Below, in pieces: positions 664 through 19,117 of a stretch of DNA of 60,268 bases. Under the pieces are notes generated by a model. That model searched no databases and was not told the DNA's origin. It saw only the letters and a program-made list of their open reading frames with translations. Both the position numbers and the translations under genes were made by a program. Position 1 is the first letter of the stretch. Each line of letters begins with the position of its first letter. Source of the DNA: Pseudomonadota bacterium (lineage in GTDB: Bacteria; Pseudomonadota; Alphaproteobacteria; GCA-2731375); contig JAQBYC010000009.1 in NCBI GenBank assembly GCA_027623205.1, positions 1 to 60,268 on the forward strand, read 5' to 3'.

Positions 664-3600
664 CTAATTCAATTCGTCCAGCAGCGCCTTGGCGTCGATC
701 AAATCCGGCATCTCGAAGCCTTCGGTGAACCAGCCGTAGACCGGCGCCAGTAGATCGCGGGCGCCCTGTGGATCGCCCTGATCGCGCAGGAAGCGGGCGA
801 AATCCGTTGCAATGCGCAGTTCATACATCCTGAGTGACCCAGACCGGGCCTTGTCCAACGCCAGTTCGAACATTTCAGCCGCGCCACCGTGGTCACCGTT
901 GAGCCGCAAGGCGATAGCCCGGATGCGCATGATTTCCCCGATTTGCCATTGCTCGCCGGTTTCATCGGCCAATAGGGTCGCCTGGTGAATGCTCTCCAGC
1001 GCAGCTTCAGCCTCCTCCAAAGCGACATGGACCTCCGCTTTCATTGCCCACATGCCGGGCAGGAAAAACTTCATATGAAAATCTTCGATATAACTGGGAT
1101 AGAAACAGTCAAATTGACCGATGGCCGCGCGGTTGTTGCCCATGATGGCCGTCAAAGAAAATTCAGTCAGTTTCCCGGCGACACGCCAAAGCGGCATATC
1201 ATAGTTGTCGGTCAGCTGTTGCAACTTTGCCAAGATGCTCCGTGTTTTTTCCTCATGCCTTAGTCCAGAAACCAACAAGCCCATATGCATCAACACATAA
1301 CCAGTCGTGTTTGGGTGATCAAGCTTCACTGCTCGTGACAGGGCGCGGTCGGCTATAGCCAACGACTGTTCCGGATATCCTTGCTGCCACGCCAATAACG
1401 CTCCGTAACAACTAGCGGCGGCCTCAACATCCTGGCCATAAACGTGGGGTGGGGAGCGCCCTGCTTCCGGCATGTCGGCATTGGCGGCCGCCAGGACGTG
1501 GGGTTCTGCGGCGCTGGGCGCGCCGCTGATGAATTGCGCCGTCCCGACGAGGCGATGCCCCAGGACAACCGGTTCAAAGTGGTTCTGACGTTTTGCCAGG
1601 CTCAGAAACTCGTCGGCCAATTCACCGGCCCTTACGACCTGCCCCGTGACGAGATGGAATATATAGCGGCCATACAGAATGGGGAAAACGCCGCGAGCCT
1701 CCCCGGTTTTTTCGGCAAGCGCGATGGCCTTGGTAAAGTTCTCCGCCAGTTTTTCCGAGCCATACCCTACCGTCGCAACCAACGGACCGGTAAGGTCGGT
1801 GTACAAGGCCAATTCCTGTCTGGCTCGTTCGTCCGTGTCGGGGAGACGGCCCAATGTTTCAAGACCGTGGTTGAGCTGGACAAGAGCTTCGGCATTGGCG
1901 GACCGGGCGGCGGAACGCAAACCGGCGCGATGCCAGTATTCAGTTGCGGGTTCGTCCTGGCCTGCTTCGGAAAAGTGATGGGCCAGCAGTTCGGGTGCGG
2001 TTTCCGCAATATCGGGAAACCGCTCGGACAAAACTAGGGCGATGCGCGCATGGTGACCCTGGCGCAATTCACGCAACATGCTGTCGTAGATCGCGTCTTG
2101 TATCAGCGCATGCTTGAAGGTGTATCTGGCAAGGGGTGGCACACCGGTGCGGAATACCAGCTCCGAGCGGAGCAACTTCGTGAGCACGTCCTCGAGAGTC
2201 GATTCCGAGCTATCCGCGACGGCAATCAACAGATCATGGGCAAATTCACGCCCGATCACTGCACCGATCTGGGCAATTTCTTTGACCTTGGGAGCCAATC
2301 GGTCGATGCGAGCCAAGAGCGAGGCCCGTAGCGTGGTTGGAATTTCGGCGTCAGCAATGTCAAGACCACTCTCGACCAGGGATTTGGTCAATTCCTCGAT
2401 GAAAAGCGGCACGCCATCGGTCCGCTCTACGATCCGCGCGACCACGTCATCGGGCACGAACTCGCCGGCGACCGCACGCACGATTTCGGCGCCGTGGTTC
2501 CGGCTTAGGCGATTTAGTTGCAGCGAGGTGACGTGGTTGTGGCCGGAGGCCTGCGGTTGCCATTCCGGCCGGTGAGTGACAACAATCAAGACCTGCGCCG
2601 ATGAAATCCGGCCAATAGCCAGTTCCAGCAATTCCTGACTAGTCGGATCAATCCAATGAGCATCCTCAAACAGGAAAAGAACCGTTTCCAAATCCGCCAA
2701 TCTCAAAAGATGGCTGGTCAGTGCATCCAGCAGCCGCGTCTTGATCTGTTCCGGCGTCTGTGGCAAGGCACCATAGCGGTGCTCGAATGGCACCGACAAC
2801 AAATGCGCAAATAGTGGGGCGATCTGGGCGATATCGTCGCCGGATTGCTTGAGGATGCTTTCGATCTTGTCCAGTTTTGCACCGCTATTGTCACCGGGGG
2901 CGATATTCGCCGCCCGATGCAATTGCTGGATTGAGGGATAAAGCGCGCTGTTGCCGTGATAGGGCGAGCATTGATAGCGGACGCGGATGTGATCGCTCGA
3001 TGCCACCTGATCGCTCAACGCCTGGATTAAGCCGGATTTGCCGATGCCCGCTTCGCCAGAGAGCAAGACAATTTGGCCTTCGCCCGCTCTCGCCAGGCGC
3101 CAGCGTTCCAACAGCAACTGCAACTCGCTATCTCGGCCAACCAGGTGGATCGAGGCCGCGCCATGAGCCGCTTCAAACCGGCTTTCGACCAGAATTTCAT
3201 GGCCGATCCGCCAGACCGGGACCGCATCATCGAATCCCTTTAGCGCATGGGCGCCAAGGTCTTCCATGGCAAAGGTCTGACCTAACAACTGGCGGGTGAT
3301 GTCGCCGACCACGACCTGACCCGGTTCCGCAATATTTTCCAATCGCGCCGCCAGATTAGGGGTTTCGCCGGTTACCGCTTCCGAGTCCCGGCCGCTTTCC
3401 CCGACCAGGTCGCCAACCACTACTTGCCCGGTGGCAATCCCGACTCGGGCGGCAAGCGCCGTTTCGTTGGCCATGTGTACCCCGGCAACGGCAAGAACCG
3501 CATCCAGGCCGGCCCGCACGGCCCGTTCGGCTTGATCCTCATACGCCTGCGGCCAACCGAAGTAGGCCAGAACGCCATCGCCGAGATACTTGGCGACGTG

Positions 3601-3966
3601 CCCGCCGTACCGGGTCACGGCACCGGCGACGGCATCTTGGTAGCGCCGCATGACATCACGTAGGTCTTCGGGGTCAAGTCGTTGGGACAGGGCTGTCGAG
3701 CCGACAAGATCGCAAAACATCACTGTCAGTTGGCGTCGTTCGGCCGCCGTCGGTTTCCGTTCGGCCTTGTCCGCCACCGCGGCAACGTTCGATGTGGAAG
3801 TGGCGCGCAACAGTCGTTTGCGATCGCCAAGGTTGACGCCGATGCTTTTTAGATCGGCATCGTCAAGTTCCGCAAGTATATCCAGATCAATACCGTTCTC
3901 GGCAAATACCGCGCCGTATTTGCCAAGCCCGCGTTCTTGCAACCATTGGTGAATGTCGTCTGTCAT
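664..3966 (-). CDS. SAM domain-class III nucleotide cyclase-AAA ATPase-TPR signalling protein
   Basis: 1100 aa cytoplasmic multidomain protein. Residues ~3-60 form a SAM domain (WLQERGLGKYGAVFAENGID). Residues ~78-255 form a class III adenylate/guanylate cyclase domain: metal-binding Asp86 (FCDLVGS) and Asp130 (YLGDG), Lys126, and the NLAARLE segment with Asn204 and Arg208. An AAA/STAND-type ATPase follows, with Walker A GEAGIGKS at 304-311 and a likely Walker B ending in FEDAHWID. The C-terminal ~500 residues look like helical TPR repeats. This architecture is common in alphaproteobacteria and is thought to couple partner sensing and ATP hydrolysis to cAMP synthesis; the ligand is unknown. 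The ATG at 3966 is preceded by GGAGAGG; a longer TTG start at 3987 would place the ribosome site inside the gene. All main catalytic residues are present, so cyclase activity is plausible. Confidence 0.88.
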   Translation of the reverse strand: MTDDIHQWLQERGLGKYGAVFAENGIDLDILAELDDADLKSIGVNLGDRKRLLRATSTSNVAAVADKAERKPTAAERRQLTVMFCDLVGSTALSQRLDPEDLRDVMRRYQDAVAGAVTRYGGHVAKYLGDGVLAYFGWPQAYEDQAERAVRAGLDAVLAVAGVHMANETALAARVGIATGQVVVGDLVGESGRDSEAVTGETPNLAARLENIAEPGQVVVGDITRQLLGQTFAMEDLGAHALKGFDDAVPVWRIGHEILVESRFEAAHGAASIHLVGRDSELQLLLERWRLARAGEGQIVLLSGEAGIGKSGLIQALSDQVASSDHIRVRYQCSPYHGNSALYPSIQQLHRAANIAPGDNSGAKLDKIESILKQSGDDIAQIAPLFAHLLSVPFEHRYGALPQTPEQIKTRLLDALTSHLLRLADLETVLFLFEDAHWIDPTSQELLELAIGRISSAQVLIVVTHRPEWQPQASGHNHVTSLQLNRLSRNHGAEIVRAVAGEFVPDDVVARIVERTDGVPLFIEELTKSLVESGLDIADAEIPTTLRASLLARIDRLAPKVKEIAQIGAVIGREFAHDLLIAVADSSESTLEDVLTKLLRSELVFRTGVPPLARYTFKHALIQDAIYDSMLRELRQGHHARIALVLSERFPDIAETAPELLAHHFSEAGQDEPATEYWHRAGLRSAARSANAEALVQLNHGLETLGRLPDTDERARQELALYTDLTGPLVATVGYGSEKLAENFTKAIALAEKTGEARGVFPILYGRYIFHLVTGQVVRAGELADEFLSLAKRQNHFEPVVLGHRLVGTAQFISGAPSAAEPHVLAAANADMPEAGRSPPHVYGQDVEAAASCYGALLAWQQGYPEQSLAIADRALSRAVKLDHPNTTGYVLMHMGLLVSGLRHEEKTRSILAKLQQLTDNYDMPLWRVAGKLTEFSLTAIMGNNRAAIGQFDCFYPSYIEDFHMKFFLPGMWAMKAEVHVALEEAEAALESIHQATLLADETGEQWQIGEIMRIRAIALRLNGDHGGAAEMFELALDKARSGSLRMYELRIATDFARFLRDQGDPQGARDLLAPVYGWFTEGFEMPDLIDAKALLDELN

Positions 3967-4014
3967 CGACGTCCGCCTCTCCGACAATCAATCTATCAGA
4001 ATAAGCCTAAATAG

Positions 4015-10872: not shown

Positions 10873-13800
10873 TTATCTCGTTTGCAGGAAAATCAGGGCC
10901 GTCTCGCTCAGAACACGCAGCGCGGCATCGCCGGCGAGGTCAGCCGCCTTATGATCGAAGGAGATGCGATAGCTGCCATCGCCGCCGTCCCGCGTGGTCC
11001 CCCGCCCCTTCCCCCTGGCCCACTCGATCGTCACGAACTTCCCATAACCGGGGCCGAGAAGCTGCCCGTTCAGGTCCTGGGGGCGCACAGTTATAGAAGC
11101 CATGCGATCGCCATTTTCGGGTTCTTTCAGCCGCACCTCCGAGGCCGGGAGCGACACCTTGACCGGGACGAAGAAGCCGCGGCTGAACTCGCGGACAAAG
11201 GGCTCGCCATCGATGGTCTTGCCTTCGGCCCGATAGGTGACACGATAGGTCCCGTCCCGGTGCAGCGGCCCAATTCGGGTACCGAAACGACGCAGGCCAG
11301 GAGCGCGCCTGTGCTGCTTGCCGGCGTCCGGCAGTTTCACTCGCCGGCTTGCGGTGGCAATTCGCGGCTTCGCCTTCAATAAGACCAGGCGACGAGCCAG
11401 GACATCGTGATCAGTCCGCAGCGATTTGGTCAGGGCCATGACTTTCTTGTCGCTCCCATTGGCCGCCGCCAAGGCCGCGCCGAGACCGAGTGTCGGTTCG
11501 CTCAACGTCGCCGTCACCACGACGTCGGTGGCGAGTTCGGCGCCGAACAAGGCAACCTGCAGGGGTAGAAACTCGGTTGTTGCGGCCGGGTCAAAAGGCT
11601 CGGCGGGCCGCAGACGCAGAGGCGAATCGGCAAGAACGACGAGGGTGAACGGCTCTTCAGTTCCGGCCGCATCGGTGCCGCGCGTCACGCGCGCCGTCCA
11701 GTTTCCAGGCTCGCGGCTGGCCGGGGGATGCAGGATCACCGCCTGAAACGTGTCTCCACCGATCCGGGTCACACCGACGAGGTCGGCCGTCAGACTGCCC
11801 TGCGCGCCCGGTGGCTGAAGGTTGAGCTTGAGCTCGGCCGTCTTATGAGCCCAGTTCAGCAGGACCAGGATCGAGCGGTCCTGCGAGGTGACGGGGAACT
11901 CGATCGCATGACTTGCGCCCTCGGTCAGACTACCCTTGGGATCGAGGATGACGGCCTGTTCGAGGATCACGCTCAGCACCTCGGAGAACCACTTCGCCAG
12001 TTCCTGGTCGGTGTTGGCGCTGTCGTAGAGGCCGTCGGTGGCGAGTTGCTGGAGCAGCCCGGCGTCGATTTGGCTGTCAGCTCCGAAACCGACCGACAGA
12101 AGCTGGATGCCGGGATCGGTGATATTCTCCAGGCGAAACGCGGCGATCTCCTGCGGGTCGGGCCCGATCATGCAGTTGTCGGTATTCTGCTTTCCGTCGG
12201 TCAGCAACACCATTACGCGACGGCGCCAGAACGGTTGCCCGGCAAGCACAGCGCTGCCGGTTTGCAGTCCGGCACGCAGCGGCGTCGCCCAGCCGTTGGC
12301 GGCCAGGCCCTCGGCCGTCCCGACGATCTCGGGAACGACCGCCTCAGCCGGGGCGAGGTCGATCAGGCTCTGCGACCAGTCTGGCTGACAAGGCTGCGTG
12401 TCATCACCGTTGGGGGGGACTTTGAAACCAAGGAGGCCGACGCGATCGCCGAGCCCCTGGCGATACTGGGAGATGATCTGCGCGAAGGTGTCGGCAGCGT
12501 GGCGTAGCGACGCAATCTTCGACAAACCGGTGTCGTCACCACTCGACTGGTTCATGCTCCCGGTATCATCGAGCACCAGGACAATATCCGCCGGACGCCG
12601 CACCGTGATCTCCAGGTCGCAGCTCTGCGAGGCGTTGCCGGAGGCGTCGACGGCCTCCAGCCTGACGGTCTGAACGCCATCCAGCGGCAGGGGATCGGGC
12701 GCGTCGCTGACGATGGTTGGTGTGGGGTCCACGAGGTCGGTGGCCTCAATGCCGGCGAGGAAGTCCGTCCAGGCCGACGCGGCCTGGGACAGCCCCGCCG
12801 GTCCGTCGGCGCCCAGGTCCTGCAGCGGCGCCGGACAGACAAGGCTCGGCGGCACCGTGTCCGAGACCGTCACGGCGATGGTGCAGGCAGCCCTGTTGCC
12901 GGCGACATCGCGGGCGGTAACGGTGAGGGAATGCGGCCCGCCAAGCGGCAGAAAGCCGGACACATCGAAGCTGAGCGACGGCGGCGGGGCGTCACCGTCG
13001 CTGGCGGTTACCCCGAGGGCGGCCGGGTCGAGCGTGGCGATGGCGACGCCTTCGGGCGCTCCGGCTTCGAGAACAAGGCTGGCAGGGCAGGCGATCGTCG
13101 GCGGCTCGGTGTCGAAGCCGCCGACCAGCGAGAAGCGTTGGGGACCTTGGGGGATGGCGAACCCGCGGACCCGGGCGATCCAGACGCCCGGGCTCGCGGC
13201 GGCGATCACCTGCTCGACGTTGTTCAGGTGGTCCCGTCCCTTGGCCGCGGGCTGCAGCGGGATGGTGCCGCCGGGATAGTCGATGCCGTCACTGGCGCCC
13301 TGGTTAACCTGCAGGTCCGTCAGGACCTGAATGGCCGTTCCGCAGGGCTGCTGCTCGGGCGTGAGCACTATGGCCGGATCGTCGGCCGCGGTAATGCGCT
13401 GGTTGAGCGCCCAGGGATAGTGCAGATCGCCAACGGGCGCGACCAACTCCAGGTCGAGGTCGTTGATCAGACGCGGGGCCGTAAGCGGCAGGGCAGGATC
13501 GGAACTCGGGTCGTCCCAGGCCAGGGTCACCCGCACCTCCGCCTGGGCGGCGCTGACCAGGAAGGGAAACGCGCGCACCTCGCAGGTGGTATCCAGCTCC
13601 GCCTCGACCACGCCTTTCGCCTCGACGGCTGCGACGGCGGCTGAAGCATCGACGAGACCCCAGCCTGTGGCGAAGTCCGGACCCGGCAGGTAGGCTACCG
13701 GACCGTCCGGGTTGGTGAAATCGGGATTGGCGAGGCCCGGCGGTGCAGCATTGACCCAGTCGAGGTCCTGCGCCGTGTGGACGATCAAGGCGCGCAGGCT

Positions 13801-16680
13801 CGACGGCATTGGCCCGCCCGCCTGTCCGCCGGGGTCGAGATGCCGCCGCCAAGCCTGCTGCAGAATACCGACAACGCCGGCAACGGCGGGGCTGGCCATG
13901 CTGGTGCCGACCATGCTGACGTAGCTGTCTTGATAGACAGTTGGCACGTCGATCGACCCGACAGAGACGATGCTGACGGCCGGCGCAACCACATCCGGCT
14001 TGATGCGCCCGTCATAGGCCGGCCCGAGGCTGCTGCCCGGCCACATAAGGGGCGGGCTCGTTTCGTCCCTCCAGCCGCCGACAAGGAGTACATTCTTTGT
14101 CTGGCTGTTAAGCGAGTAGTAGCCGATCTGGTCGCCCCCGTGGGGATTGGTTCCGGCGTTACCCGCGGCCATGATGATCGGCGTGGCCGGGATCGGCTGT
14201 CCGGCATGCAGGCCATTACCGCCAACTACGTCGTCCTGCAGCCTGGCGCGGGCGCCGTATTCACCGTCGGGATCCAGAGCCAATGAGATATTGATCAGGT
14301 CGGCGCCCTGCTCAGCGGTGACCTCGTGGAAGCGCTGCGCCGAAGTCGCTAGATTGGGCAGAAAGATCAGCCCAGCTTCCGGCAGCATGCCGCGCCACTG
14401 ATGGGGCATGCCGCCATTAGACGCGCCGCCGACATTTCTTCTGCCGCTGCGCGCGCCACTTCCGGCGATCGTTCCAAGAACATGGCCGGCATGCGGGCTT
14501 GAGCCGGACGGCAGGGTCTCGGGTCGCGCAACGATGCGGCCCTCAAAATCGCCATGCCGCCATTCGGCCGATCCCTCGAGGTTGACCACCCGTATGCCGT
14601 CAAGGTCGGCATCGCGCCACAGCGGCGCGGCATGAGAGTTGACGGCCAGGGACGGATGCTCGACAGAGAGCTGGATACCGGCCTCGAAGACCTGCGGTTC
14701 GCCGGTGCTGCGATAAAGCCAGACCTCGCCTGCTGCCGTGCCCACCGCCAGGTCCTGCAGGCCATCGCGGTCGAAATCGAACAGCGACGGCGCAGCGTTC
14801 TCCCCGGCATCGAGCGCCGCGCCGCCGGCCTCGAGTGGCACGCCCTGGGCATAGACCGGCGCCTCGTCGCTGGCATTGTTGCGGAACCAGGTGACACCTC
14901 CGCCGGAGTCGCCGACCAGAAGATCGTGCGCGCCGTCGCGATCGAGATCGAACAGGAGCGGGCGCGCGTTGCCGCCGACATCGAGCGTCACCCCGCCCGC
15001 CTGTATCGTGACGCCGGCGGCATAGTTCGGCGCATTGTAGTCGTTGGTTCTCTGGTTCAGGAAAAGTAACAGGCGCCCATCGCCCGCACCGACCAGAAGG
15101 TCGCGCCCGCCGTTGCGGTCCCAGTCAAACAGAATTGGGGCGGCATTGCCGCCGACGGCCACTGGCAGGCCGTTCGCCTCGACGGGAATGCCGACGTCAT
15201 AGACCGGCAGGGCGTCGCTGCCGGCATTGATGAAGGCGATGACCGCGCCGTCGGCGTTACCGACCAGCAGGTCGAAATCCCCGTCATTGCCGAGCGCGGC
15301 AATGTGCCAGTCGGTAAAGAACGGTACGGCATTGGCGCCAACATCGAGCGCGACACCGCCGGCGAGTAGAGGCGTGCCGCCATCATAGTTCGGCGCCTCG
15401 TCCGATCCGATATTCCTGAACAGCCGGACAGTGCCGTCGCCGGCGCCAAGATAGAGATCCTTGTCGCCGCTACCCGAATAGTTATAGCCGGGAGCCGGCG
15501 GCGCCAGGTCGATCGCGTGCAGCGGCTCGACCATGATAACGCTTCGTGATTTATTGTTCAGCGGCAGCGGCGGCGGTGGTACCGGTGCGATCCATTCGAC
15601 CTGCGGCGCGCGGGCCAGGCGCCGAATTCCGGCGGGGTCGAGGGTGACGGTCCAGTCCCGGTCGGACTCCCGTCGAAGCGTCCGGGCCAGCCTCCCAAGA
15701 AGCATGTCGACCTCGCTCCCGGCCACCTGCGGCGCGAAAATAACGCTCAGGTTTACGCTGCCGTCGCTGTTCAGCACGTAAGGTATCCGCGTGTCTTCCT
15801 TGCTGTCCGGTGCCGGCGCCAGGAAGCGGGAGAACTGCCCGAGGGCGACGCGCGGCGATAGCTTGTCTGCAGGGCGCAGGCCGGCCGCCGCCTCGATTAG
15901 CTGGCCGGATAGACCGGCGCCCAGATCGGCGCCGCGCTCGATGACCGCGCGATAGGTACGCAGCGACAGAAACTGATAGAGATGGATGCCAGCGCGGCGC
16001 AGGGCAGCCAGCTCCACGGGTTTCGGCAGCCGCCTGACGCGAACAAAAGCAAGCTGGCGTGGCGGCGCGGCGCGCGAAGCAACCGATTCGACCAGCGCCC
16101 GCGTGCTGACCGTGTCGAGAAGTATTGCGCCGGAGCGCATGCCCAGAGTGCCGCGTCGCGCTGGCGCCTCGGGATAGGTGATCGCCAGCGTTCCGCCGGC
16201 CGAAGCTTTGACCTCGCCGGTCAGCCGCAAGCGCCAGCTCACGCCGTTGCGGACCAGTTGTTCCGGCAGGCTTGTCTCGAAACGAAGCGGACTGGCGGCG
16301 CGTCGCTGCACGAGCGGCGTCGCCTCGCCCGGCGCGTAAAGCTCCACGGTCAGCAGGAATGGCTCTGCGGGCCAGCGGACCTCGACGGCGAGGCGGCCGG
16401 CCCGATTTATGCCGAACACAACGCCGTCTGACTCATTGGGGCGGAGCTCAAACGCCTTGTGAATTTGGGTACGGGGGCCGTCCTGCGCTAGTGCGCAGCC
16501 TACGGCGAGGCTGGCGACAAAAATACTGTTGAGCAGACCGGCCACGACGTGCAGCCGCGCACGACATCGCCTCGCAGGATTAGGCCGACATGGAACGCCG
16601 GCCGATCGTCTGGTGAGAGGGCGGGCGGGTCGCGGCAGCTGGCGCTGTCTCATATCCGGCCGAATCGAATGCGTTTGCAT
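10873..16680 (-). CDS. Giant secreted subtilisin-like (S8) protein with FG-GAP, HYR-like and VWA domains
   Basis: 1935 aa. Residues ~45-68 form a signal-like helix (VVAGLLNSIFVASLAVGCALA) after a long Arg-rich start. Then comes a propeptide-like region to ~385. The peptidase domain opens with YNYSGSG (402-405) but is interrupted by about 285 residues of FG-GAP/VCBS-type repeats (LLVGNADGAV, FDLDRDGAHDLLVG). It resumes near 695 with VVNLEGS, His730 (PHAGHVLGTIAG) and Ser927 (GTSMASPAVAGV). A C-terminal beta domain ends near 1190, then HYR-like repeats (DTEPPTIACP, DTVPPSLVCP), a VWA domain with MIDAS DDTGSM near 1365, and more beta-rich sequence. The position expected for the catalytic Asp reads Glu702. 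The ATG at 16680 has GGAGGG upstream. Probably exported, for proteolysis or adhesion. No sorting motif was identified. Confidence 0.85.
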   Translation of the reverse strand: MQTHSIRPDMRQRQLPRPARPLTRRSAGVPCRPNPARRCRARLHVVAGLLNSIFVASLAVGCALAQDGPRTQIHKAFELRPNESDGVVFGINRAGRLAVEVRWPAEPFLLTVELYAPGEATPLVQRRAASPLRFETSLPEQLVRNGVSWRLRLTGEVKASAGGTLAITYPEAPARRGTLGMRSGAILLDTVSTRALVESVASRAAPPRQLAFVRVRRLPKPVELAALRRAGIHLYQFLSLRTYRAVIERGADLGAGLSGQLIEAAAGLRPADKLSPRVALGQFSRFLAPAPDSKEDTRIPYVLNSDGSVNLSVIFAPQVAGSEVDMLLGRLARTLRRESDRDWTVTLDPAGIRRLARAPQVEWIAPVPPPPLPLNNKSRSVIMVEPLHAIDLAPPAPGYNYSGSGDKDLYLGAGDGTVRLFRNIGSDEAPNYDGGTPLLAGGVALDVGANAVPFFTDWHIAALGNDGDFDLLVGNADGAVIAFINAGSDALPVYDVGIPVEANGLPVAVGGNAAPILFDWDRNGGRDLLVGAGDGRLLLFLNQRTNDYNAPNYAAGVTIQAGGVTLDVGGNARPLLFDLDRDGAHDLLVGDSGGGVTWFRNNASDEAPVYAQGVPLEAGGAALDAGENAAPSLFDFDRDGLQDLAVGTAAGEVWLYRSTGEPQVFEAGIQLSVEHPSLAVNSHAAPLWRDADLDGIRVVNLEGSAEWRHGDFEGRIVARPETLPSGSSPHAGHVLGTIAGSGARSGRRNVGGASNGGMPHQWRGMLPEAGLIFLPNLATSAQRFHEVTAEQGADLINISLALDPDGEYGARARLQDDVVGGNGLHAGQPIPATPIIMAAGNAGTNPHGGDQIGYYSLNSQTKNVLLVGGWRDETSPPLMWPGSSLGPAYDGRIKPDVVAPAVSIVSVGSIDVPTVYQDSYVSMVGTSMASPAVAGVVGILQQAWRRHLDPGGQAGGPMPSSLRALIVHTAQDLDWVNAAPPGLANPDFTNPDGPVAYLPGPDFATGWGLVDASAAVAAVEAKGVVEAELDTTCEVRAFPFLVSAAQAEVRVTLAWDDPSSDPALPLTAPRLINDLDLELVAPVGDLHYPWALNQRITAADDPAIVLTPEQQPCGTAIQVLTDLQVNQGASDGIDYPGGTIPLQPAAKGRDHLNNVEQVIAAASPGVWIARVRGFAIPQGPQRFSLVGGFDTEPPTIACPASLVLEAGAPEGVAIATLDPAALGVTASDGDAPPPSLSFDVSGFLPLGGPHSLTVTARDVAGNRAACTIAVTVSDTVPPSLVCPAPLQDLGADGPAGLSQAASAWTDFLAGIEATDLVDPTPTIVSDAPDPLPLDGVQTVRLEAVDASGNASQSCDLEITVRRPADIVLVLDDTGSMNQSSGDDTGLSKIASLRHAADTFAQIISQYRQGLGDRVGLLGFKVPPNGDDTQPCQPDWSQSLIDLAPAEAVVPEIVGTAEGLAANGWATPLRAGLQTGSAVLAGQPFWRRRVMVLLTDGKQNTDNCMIGPDPQEIAAFRLENITDPGIQLLSVGFGADSQIDAGLLQQLATDGLYDSANTDQELAKWFSEVLSVILEQAVILDPKGSLTEGASHAIEFPVTSQDRSILVLLNWAHKTAELKLNLQPPGAQGSLTADLVGVTRIGGDTFQAVILHPPASREPGNWTARVTRGTDAAGTEEPFTLVVLADSPLRLRPAEPFDPAATTEFLPLQVALFGAELATDVVVTATLSEPTLGLGAALAAANGSDKKVMALTKSLRTDHDVLARRLVLLKAKPRIATASRRVKLPDAGKQHRRAPGLRRFGTRIGPLHRDGTYRVTYRAEGKTIDGEPFVREFSRGFFVPVKVSLPASEVRLKEPENGDRMASITVRPQDLNGQLLGPGYGKFVTIEWARGKGRGTTRDGGDGSYRISFDHKAADLAGDAALRVLSETALIFLQTR

Positions 16681-17960: not shown

Positions 17961-18055
17961 GGAAATCCCCATTATATTTTCTGCGAAATCATTTTGCCAA
18001 ATCGACTTGGCCGCATAATCTTAGAGGTAGATCTAGAGATGGAAAGAGAAGACTG

Positions 18056-19117
18056 ATGGCCAAGGAAAAAATCCGCGTCGGCGTTATTGGCGCCGGCGGC
18101 AATACCACCAAGCTGCACATACCGGGCCTGCAGGCCCAGGACGGCGTCGAGATCGTGAGCGTAGCCAACCGGACCATGACTTCCGGCCAGCGGGTGGCGG
18201 ATGAATTCGACATTCCGGGGGTTGCCGCCGATTGGCAGGAGGTTGTCGAGGACCCGAACATCGATGCGGTCTGCATCGGCACCTGGCCCTATATGCATGC
18301 GCCCATGACCATTGCCGCCCTGGAACAAGGCAAGCATGTTTTGTGCGAGGCCCGCATGGCCCTGAATTCCAATCAGGCCCATGACATGCTGGCGGCCGCG
18401 CGCCAGGCCCCCCGTTGCGTGGCGCAAATCGTGCCCGCGCCCCACACCCTGGCATTTGACCAGACCATAATCGAGATGATCGCGGCCGGTTTCATTGGCG
18501 ATCTGATTGCCCTTGATGCCAGGATCGCGGCGGCCAGCGACTTTCCCAACCCCAATTCGCCGACCCATTGGCGCCAGGACCGGGATCTGTCCGGCAACAA
18601 CATCATGTCCATGGGCATCTGGTACGAGGCGATGATGCGCTGGGTCGGTCCCATGGCAAATGTGTTCGCCACCGGTCAGGCCGTCGTCTCCCATCGGGTT
18701 GATGGCGACGGGCGGCGGGTTGCCATGACCATTCCCGACCATGTGGATATCATGGGCAAAATGGAACAGGGCGGGCAAATCCGCTTCAACGTGTCCACCG
18801 TGCTTGGCCATGCACCGGCGGTCGTCGATGTCTGCCTGTTCGGCACCAATGGTACGCTGCGCCTGTGCCAGACGGGCGCCGACCCCTTGACGCTTTATGC
18901 TGGCAAGCGCGGCGAGGACGGCTTGGCGCCGGTTACGATAGATCCGGCAAAGAAAGGCGCCTGGCGGGTGGAGGAAGAATTCATCAACGCCATTCGGGGC
19001 ATCGAAGCGGTCAGCCATACCGACTTCACAACAGCGGTCAAATACATGGAATGGACCGACGCGGTGACCCTGTCGCTGCGATCCGGTCAGTCCATCGCCC
19101 TGCCCCTGATGGGCTGA
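18056..19117 (+). CDS. Gfo/Idh/MocA family NAD(P)-dependent oxidoreductase
   Basis: 353 aa. The N-terminal Rossmann fold shows VGVIGAGGNTTKLHIPGLQ, then the family's EGKHVLCE-like segment as QGKHVLCEARMALN, followed by the alpha/beta C-terminal substrate domain. The usual catalytic EKP motif is replaced by CEARMAL, so Lys is missing at the position that normally assists hydride transfer. That is seen in some members but makes the reaction uncertain. Most relatives act on sugars, inositols or related polyols. The ATG at 18056 has GGAAAGAGAAG upstream. It ends 11 bases from the convergent RND permease gene. Confidence 0.82.
   Translation: MAKEKIRVGVIGAGGNTTKLHIPGLQAQDGVEIVSVANRTMTSGQRVADEFDIPGVAADWQEVVEDPNIDAVCIGTWPYMHAPMTIAALEQGKHVLCEARMALNSNQAHDMLAAARQAPRCVAQIVPAPHTLAFDQTIIEMIAAGFIGDLIALDARIAAASDFPNPNSPTHWRQDRDLSGNNIMSMGIWYEAMMRWVGPMANVFATGQAVVSHRVDGDGRRVAMTIPDHVDIMGKMEQGGQIRFNVSTVLGHAPAVVDVCLFGTNGTLRLCQTGADPLTLYAGKRGEDGLAPVTIDPAKKGAWRVEEEFINAIRGIEAVSHTDFTTAVKYMEWTDAVTLSLRSGQSIALPLMG

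Follow-up and report, generated by a model that had tools for sequence, protein, structure and literature searches.

A five-repeat FG-GAP block within the peptidase domain of an S8 homologue bearing glutamate at the catalytic aspartate position

Peptidases of family S8, the subtilisins, are described as Asp-His-Ser enzymes (PMC9549277). The window analysed here, the whole stretch of 60,268 nucleotides, holds a gene for a member of this known family in which the peptidase domain is split by a five-repeat propeller block and the triad carries a glutamate; no second case of the insertion occurs among the collections sampled. This locus raises two questions. The first is whether the inserted block and the glutamate belong together, as the initial annotation had proposed. 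The second is whether a protein built in this way can still act as a peptidase.

Domain order and fold

The gene is a single intact reading frame in which all 1935 codons are open; its features are collected in Table 1. The Pfam profile Peptidase_S8 (PF00082) matches residues 720-979 (1.3e-23; 84.2 bits against a cut-off of 21.8). The match spans profile positions 46-274, and the unmatched first 45 positions are where the insert lies. Pfam also gives three FG-GAP_3 matches (8.5e-10), two HYR matches, and VWA_2 at 1366-1497, where a VWA domain had been expected downstream. In a scan limited to the C-terminal half, the VWA profile (PF13519) reaches 28.3 bits against a cut-off of 27; in the whole-protein scan it reaches 25.5 bits, slightly below that cut-off. 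A second HYR-like or Ig-like stretch follows the HYR domain at 1190-1272. The NDLDL and NNVE segments of the C-terminal sandwich align with KP-43, each weakly on its own, and align well with KP-43-like relatives. The protein is probably secreted, to judge from its sequence, and pro-regions of similar style are found in the relatives L002, L013 and L112.

Table 1. Features of the S8/FG-GAP gene, with positions in the window
Feature	Position	Strand	Basis or remark
Whole CDS, 1935 aa	10876..16680	(-)	stop codon 10873-10875, ATG 16680
Residues 1-398, hydrophobic signal-like stretch and long N-terminal pro-region	15487..16680	(-)	sequence
YNYSGSG (399-405), N-terminal arm of S8 core (GxG)	15466..15486	(-)	homologue alignment
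Insert, residues 406-695, five FG-GAP repeats	14596..15465	(-)	
FG-GAP repeat 1 (406-467, 62 aa)	15280..15465	(-)	
Asp408, proposed N-terminal half of split calcium loop	15457..15459	(-)	inferred; register with DxDxDGxxD of other repeats
FG-GAP repeat 2 (468-524, 57 aa)	15109..15279	(-)	
FG-GAP repeat 3 (525-583, 59 aa)	14932..15108	(-)	
FG-GAP repeat 4 (584-640, 57 aa)	14761..14931	(-)	
FG-GAP repeat 5 (641-695, 55 aa), ends DADLDG	14596..14760	(-)	
Asp690, Asp692, Asp694, proposed C-terminal half of split calcium loop	14599..14613	(-)	inferred
Remaining S8 catalytic core, 696 to ~985	13726..14595	(-)	
Glu702, catalytic Asp position	14575..14577	(-)	
His730, catalytic His	14491..14493	(-)	motif HAGHV, not HGTHV/HATHV
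Asn841, oxyanion-hole Asn (AAGN)	14158..14160	(-)	
Ser927, nucleophile (GTSMASP)	13900..13902	(-)	
KP-43-type C-terminal beta-sandwich, ~1020-1190 (NDLDL...NNVE...)	13111..13623	(-)	
HYR domain, 1190-1272	12865..13113	(-)	Pfam
VWA domain, 1366-1497	12190..12585	(-)	Pfam; homologous to VWA of L112

The nearest solved relatives by sequence in the PDB are KP-43 (1wmd, 1.7e-15) and SubHal (5fax). An AF2 model of residues 370-1190, built from 37 rows, has a mean pLDDT of 50.7 and is confident in the S8 core only, where it confirms the S8 (subtilisin) fold: its top Foldseek match is again KP-43 (1.8e-13), and VIA-align superposes the modelled core on KP-43 with a Z of 24.5, tied with several other subtilases, and an rmsd of 3.4 over 259 residues. 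KP-43 and SubHal (MEROPS S08.123) are thus the best sequence match in the PDB and among the best fold matches. They share with the window protein the S8 core, the His and Ser motifs and, probably, the C-terminal beta-barrel or sandwich, but they have a triad Asp, nothing inserted before the Asp strand, and neither HYR nor VWA. Vpr (8jmw), cucumisin and C5a peptidase also appear among the sequence and fold matches. In these the S8 core carries an inserted PA domain, which is an added domain as in our protein; the PA domain, however, lies between His and Ser instead of before the Asp strand, and it is not a propeller.

The inserted block, its joins and its distribution

The FG-GAP block does lie within the S8 domain, with parts of the S8 core to either side of residues 406-695. 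The YNYSGSG motif occupies residues 399-405, and not 402-405 as first given, and the insert measures 290 residues instead of about 285, in five repeats of 62, 57, 59, 57 and 55 residues. Every repeat runs from just after the Gly of one DxDxDG-type loop to the next such loop. The insert begins and ends at the Gly of such a loop and so comprises a whole number of repeats. As had been read correctly, DADLDGIR (690-697) passes directly into VVNLEGS (698-704); Gly695 is at once the last Gly of the insert and the second Gly of the S8 GxG motif.

The joins were placed with relatives that have no insert, namely L013 (Bradyrhizobium), L002 (Hydrogenedentota), L005, L017 and L019. YNYSGSG, which aligns with YGLTGAG, ALDGEG and LGLSGSG of homologues, falls on the YGLTGAG-type arm of insert-free KP-43-like relatives, and its Gly403 stands in a column that is 100% Gly across a non-redundant set of 85 S8 sequences. 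On the other side, GIRVVNLEGS matches their GVKVGIWDGG-type strand (also GVVVMVYDGG) without a gap. To have both ends in one loop is what a closed propeller seated in a loop of the host domain would need, and the two ends could share one calcium site. If so, the insertion illustrates how an enzyme loop can take up an entire repeat propeller, with both cuts at equivalent positions of the repeat.

Both joins preserve the reading frame, the GC3 of the insert (0.78) matches that of the host gene, and its codon usage correlates with the rest of the gene at r 0.84-0.89; together these features argue against a chance or chimeric join. The repeats are mutually diverged, with 63-73% DNA identity. A search for direct repeats or microhomology at the joins found that both end in CGGC and have nothing longer in common, which is the chance level for GC-rich DNA.

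We must nevertheless consider that the insertion is recent and possibly damaging, in a gene that is being lost, or that it is an assembly chimera. The arrangement is known from one genome, a draft assembly of 228 contigs; 14 further genomes of the order, 10 of which belong to this genus, lack an orthologue; and the branch of the protein is long (1.87). Set against these points are a fully open frame, in-frame joins at equivalent positions of the repeat, uniform composition, and repeats too different from one another to be fresh duplications, and we regard decay or chimerism as improbable. The same S8/FG-GAP arrangement was also not found in samples comprising 385 genomes from the class, about 400 from the phylum, 274 from another class, IMG/VR and plasmids, nor in a scan of genome contigs with a single-sequence query that detects close relatives only. 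An orthologue was likewise absent from the class, phylum, plasmid and IMG/VR samples. The gene looks to have been acquired, or else differentially lost elsewhere.

As to the source of the block, a paralogous or local origin can be rejected, since the genome contains no second S8 gene, and its only other FG-GAP gene is unrelated. An integrin-type propeller of seven blades, with seven FG-GAP repeats, does not fit either, since there are five repeats here. Nostoc (L079) and Azospirillum (L080) offer close parallels in FG-GAP/VCBS blocks that likewise comprise five repeats, each about 58 residues long and with a DxDxDG loop, at 29-34% identity; these blocks are free-standing, whereas ours is permuted into an enzyme domain. 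Five is thus a natural number for such repeats in no fewer than two other lineages. A PDB sequence search with the insert as query gave no match, and a collection of FG-GAP homologues from viral contigs yielded one poor row, which in one alignment was wrongly placed on the S8 part. Since usable homologues are lacking, pLDDT over the block is low, about 25-47, in both AF2 models (of the block alone and in context), and below 50 nearly throughout. A 760-residue FG-GAP-repeat protein (L021, on C33 of the Hydrogenedentota genome G754) is 31-35% identical to the block; the same genome carries the insert-free S8 relative L002.

The catalytic residues and the glutamate-bearing relatives

Glu702 does stand in the Asp column of the profile alignments, 28 residues before His730 as had been stated, and His730 and Ser927 are intact. 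An S8 alignment whose members come for the most part from viral contigs shows Asp at this position in 57 other rows and Glu in the window gene only; in the non-redundant set, 75 of 85 sequences have Asp. By its sequence, the protein is therefore an S8 homologue but not a canonical Asp-His-Ser member.

Another acidic residue might take the place of Asp, giving an Asp-His-Ser triad by a different route with Glu702 as a bystander. The alignments contain no apparent sign of such a residue. The acid strand aligns gap-free with GVKVGIWDGG and GVVVMVYDGG; the model and KP-43 are in register there (model residue 317, which is residue 686, onward aligns to KP-43 residues 15-318, and model residue 333 is Glu702); and three relatives have Glu in the same column. 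By the model register, Glu702 would lie at or adjoining Asp30 of KP-43. We therefore find a replacement acid very improbable.

The three relatives are KP-43-like proteins that a profile search recovered from a different class of this phylum: L085 (G875; motif GWEGG), L088 (G788; IWEEG) and L091 (VFEPT), of which L112 is the full version. A further protein, L106, has Glu in one alignment and is unaligned at that position in another, and is left out of this count. All three keep the His, the oxyanion Asn and the Ser, and have no FG-GAP repeats. L085 and L088 also have no VWA that we could see, and a standard HATHV motif. Relatives bearing Asp are likewise free of the insert, and a homologue with Asp plus the same insertion was not found in the collections searched. 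Thus Glu is not a consequence of the insertion, and the link between the two that had been suggested is not supported; the acid change and the propeller insertion are two separate oddities.

In a tree of the cores, four Glu and four Asp proteins form one clade with support 100/99, and a larger tree is concordant with weaker support. Constraining the Glu proteins to one clade is rejected (p-AU 0.0006), whereas a grouping of the window protein with L091 is acceptable (p-AU 0.40), in a test set up after the Glu rows had been seen and on few, long-branched rows that do not fix the number of switches. The mixed clade and the rejection of a single Glu group indicate that switching between Asp and Glu is recurrent here. 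A clade in which Glu repeatedly stands beside intact His, oxyanion Asn and Ser is material with which the function of a Glu-His-Ser subtilisin can be tested.

L112 (G803:C53, 1473 residues) is especially informative. It has Glu in the Asp column and a KP-43-type core and sandwich, and it is colinear with the window protein over the S8 part (1e-31) and the VWA/C-terminal part (1e-11). In it a pro-region is followed by the Glu-bearing S8 domain, the sandwich, VWA and C-terminal domains, with neither FG-GAP nor HYR; it ends in a predicted outer-membrane beta-barrel, which the window protein lacks. Since the S8(Glu) plus VWA layout exists without the insert, the insertion is most simply a later event. 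At L112:991-5409 (-), the His motif reads HTTMV and the Ser motif SQTSAAA.

It remains to ask whether the protein cuts. It may be a pseudoprotease, a surface adhesin of propeller, HYR and VWA displayed on an S8 core without useful catalysis. Two highly conserved active-site columns are altered: besides D702E there is T732G in HAGHV, near the active site, where Thr is present in 57 of 57 other aligned S8 sequences and which L085 and L088 do not share. The propeller adjoins the acid strand, both HYR and VWA belong to the adhesion-type domains, the branch is long, and CspC is among the best NCBIfam matches, though at 30.2 against a cut-off of 675. CspC-type pseudoproteases have lost triad residues outright; with His730 and Ser927 in place, we reject membership of that type. 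Moreover, the protein keeps 19 of the 23 columns conserved across the 85 S8 sequences (including His730, Gly840/Asn841, Thr926/Ser927 and Pro931), which a dead scaffold need not keep, and Glu recurs in relatives with intact His and Ser. A dead scaffold thus seems to us rather unlikely, at roughly one chance in four, though it is the chief rival of our preferred reading. The earlier view that Glu alone is the sign of a weakened or inactive enzyme is unsupported, given three Glu homologues that keep His, Asn and Ser.

Because Glu recurs beside an otherwise intact active site, a Glu triad is plausible, and the protein probably still cuts, slowly or selectively, as an endopeptidase that relies on a Glu-His-Ser triad. 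A limited literature search found no natural or engineered Glu in a subtilisin triad, and such papers may exist. The sedolisins (S53) combine a subtilisin-like fold with an active-site Glu (PMC9549277). Their triad is Glu-Asp-Ser without His, whereas our protein keeps His730 within an S8 His motif and has no S53 match; sedolisin membership is therefore rejected.

A proposed role for the inserted block

The reading we prefer, to which we give about an even chance, is that of a secreted, KP-43-like Glu-His-Ser subtilase, probably active, that independently gained a five-blade propeller as a binding or calcium module. The host would have been a secreted S8 subtilase from the clade with recurrent changes of the triad acid, and a whole number of FG-GAP repeats would have entered the loop just before the Asp/Glu strand. 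As the two ends lie behind the Gly of one DxDxDG loop, the first strand and the last would together complete a blade, and Asp408 together with Asp690, Asp692 and Asp694 would form one common calcium site, clipping the module to the core. The propeller, HYR and VWA domains would then act as a calcium-dependent exosite or adhesive module, most likely docking the protease on its target, a polymer or a cell surface.

The same geometry admits two regulatory variants. If the propeller ends share a calcium site, eight residues ahead of the triad acid, calcium or a ligand might set the position of Glu702 and so switch the subtilase on or off, which we consider quite improbable. Alternatively, the propeller might be a lid over the active site, the enzyme being on when calcium or a ligand moves it. 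The insert meets the core six residues before Glu702 and calcium-type loops stand at both joins, but the models, of low confidence over the block, lend a lid no support, the pro-region already supplies the usual inhibition, and an arm that precedes the Asp strand does not have to point towards the substrate cleft; we find a lid very improbable.

The genomic context (an RND pump, an alcohol dehydrogenase, a TPR protein and an amidohydrolase) offers no functional link. Elsewhere in the window, positions 664-3987 (-) encode a 1107-residue protein with an unusual-looking signalling combination of SAM domain, adenylate/guanylate cyclase, AAA_16 and TPR-like parts, and positions 17972-19018 (-) hold a 348-residue reading frame without a Pfam match, flanked by the alcohol dehydrogenase and RND pump genes. 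Finally, a viral contig from IMG/VR, that of L027, carries a short S8-like protein (L124:3521-4417 (+)) in which Gly occupies the Asp position (VGIIGTG) and GHETAV replaces HGTHV; its Ser is kept, and it resembles a pseudoprotease.
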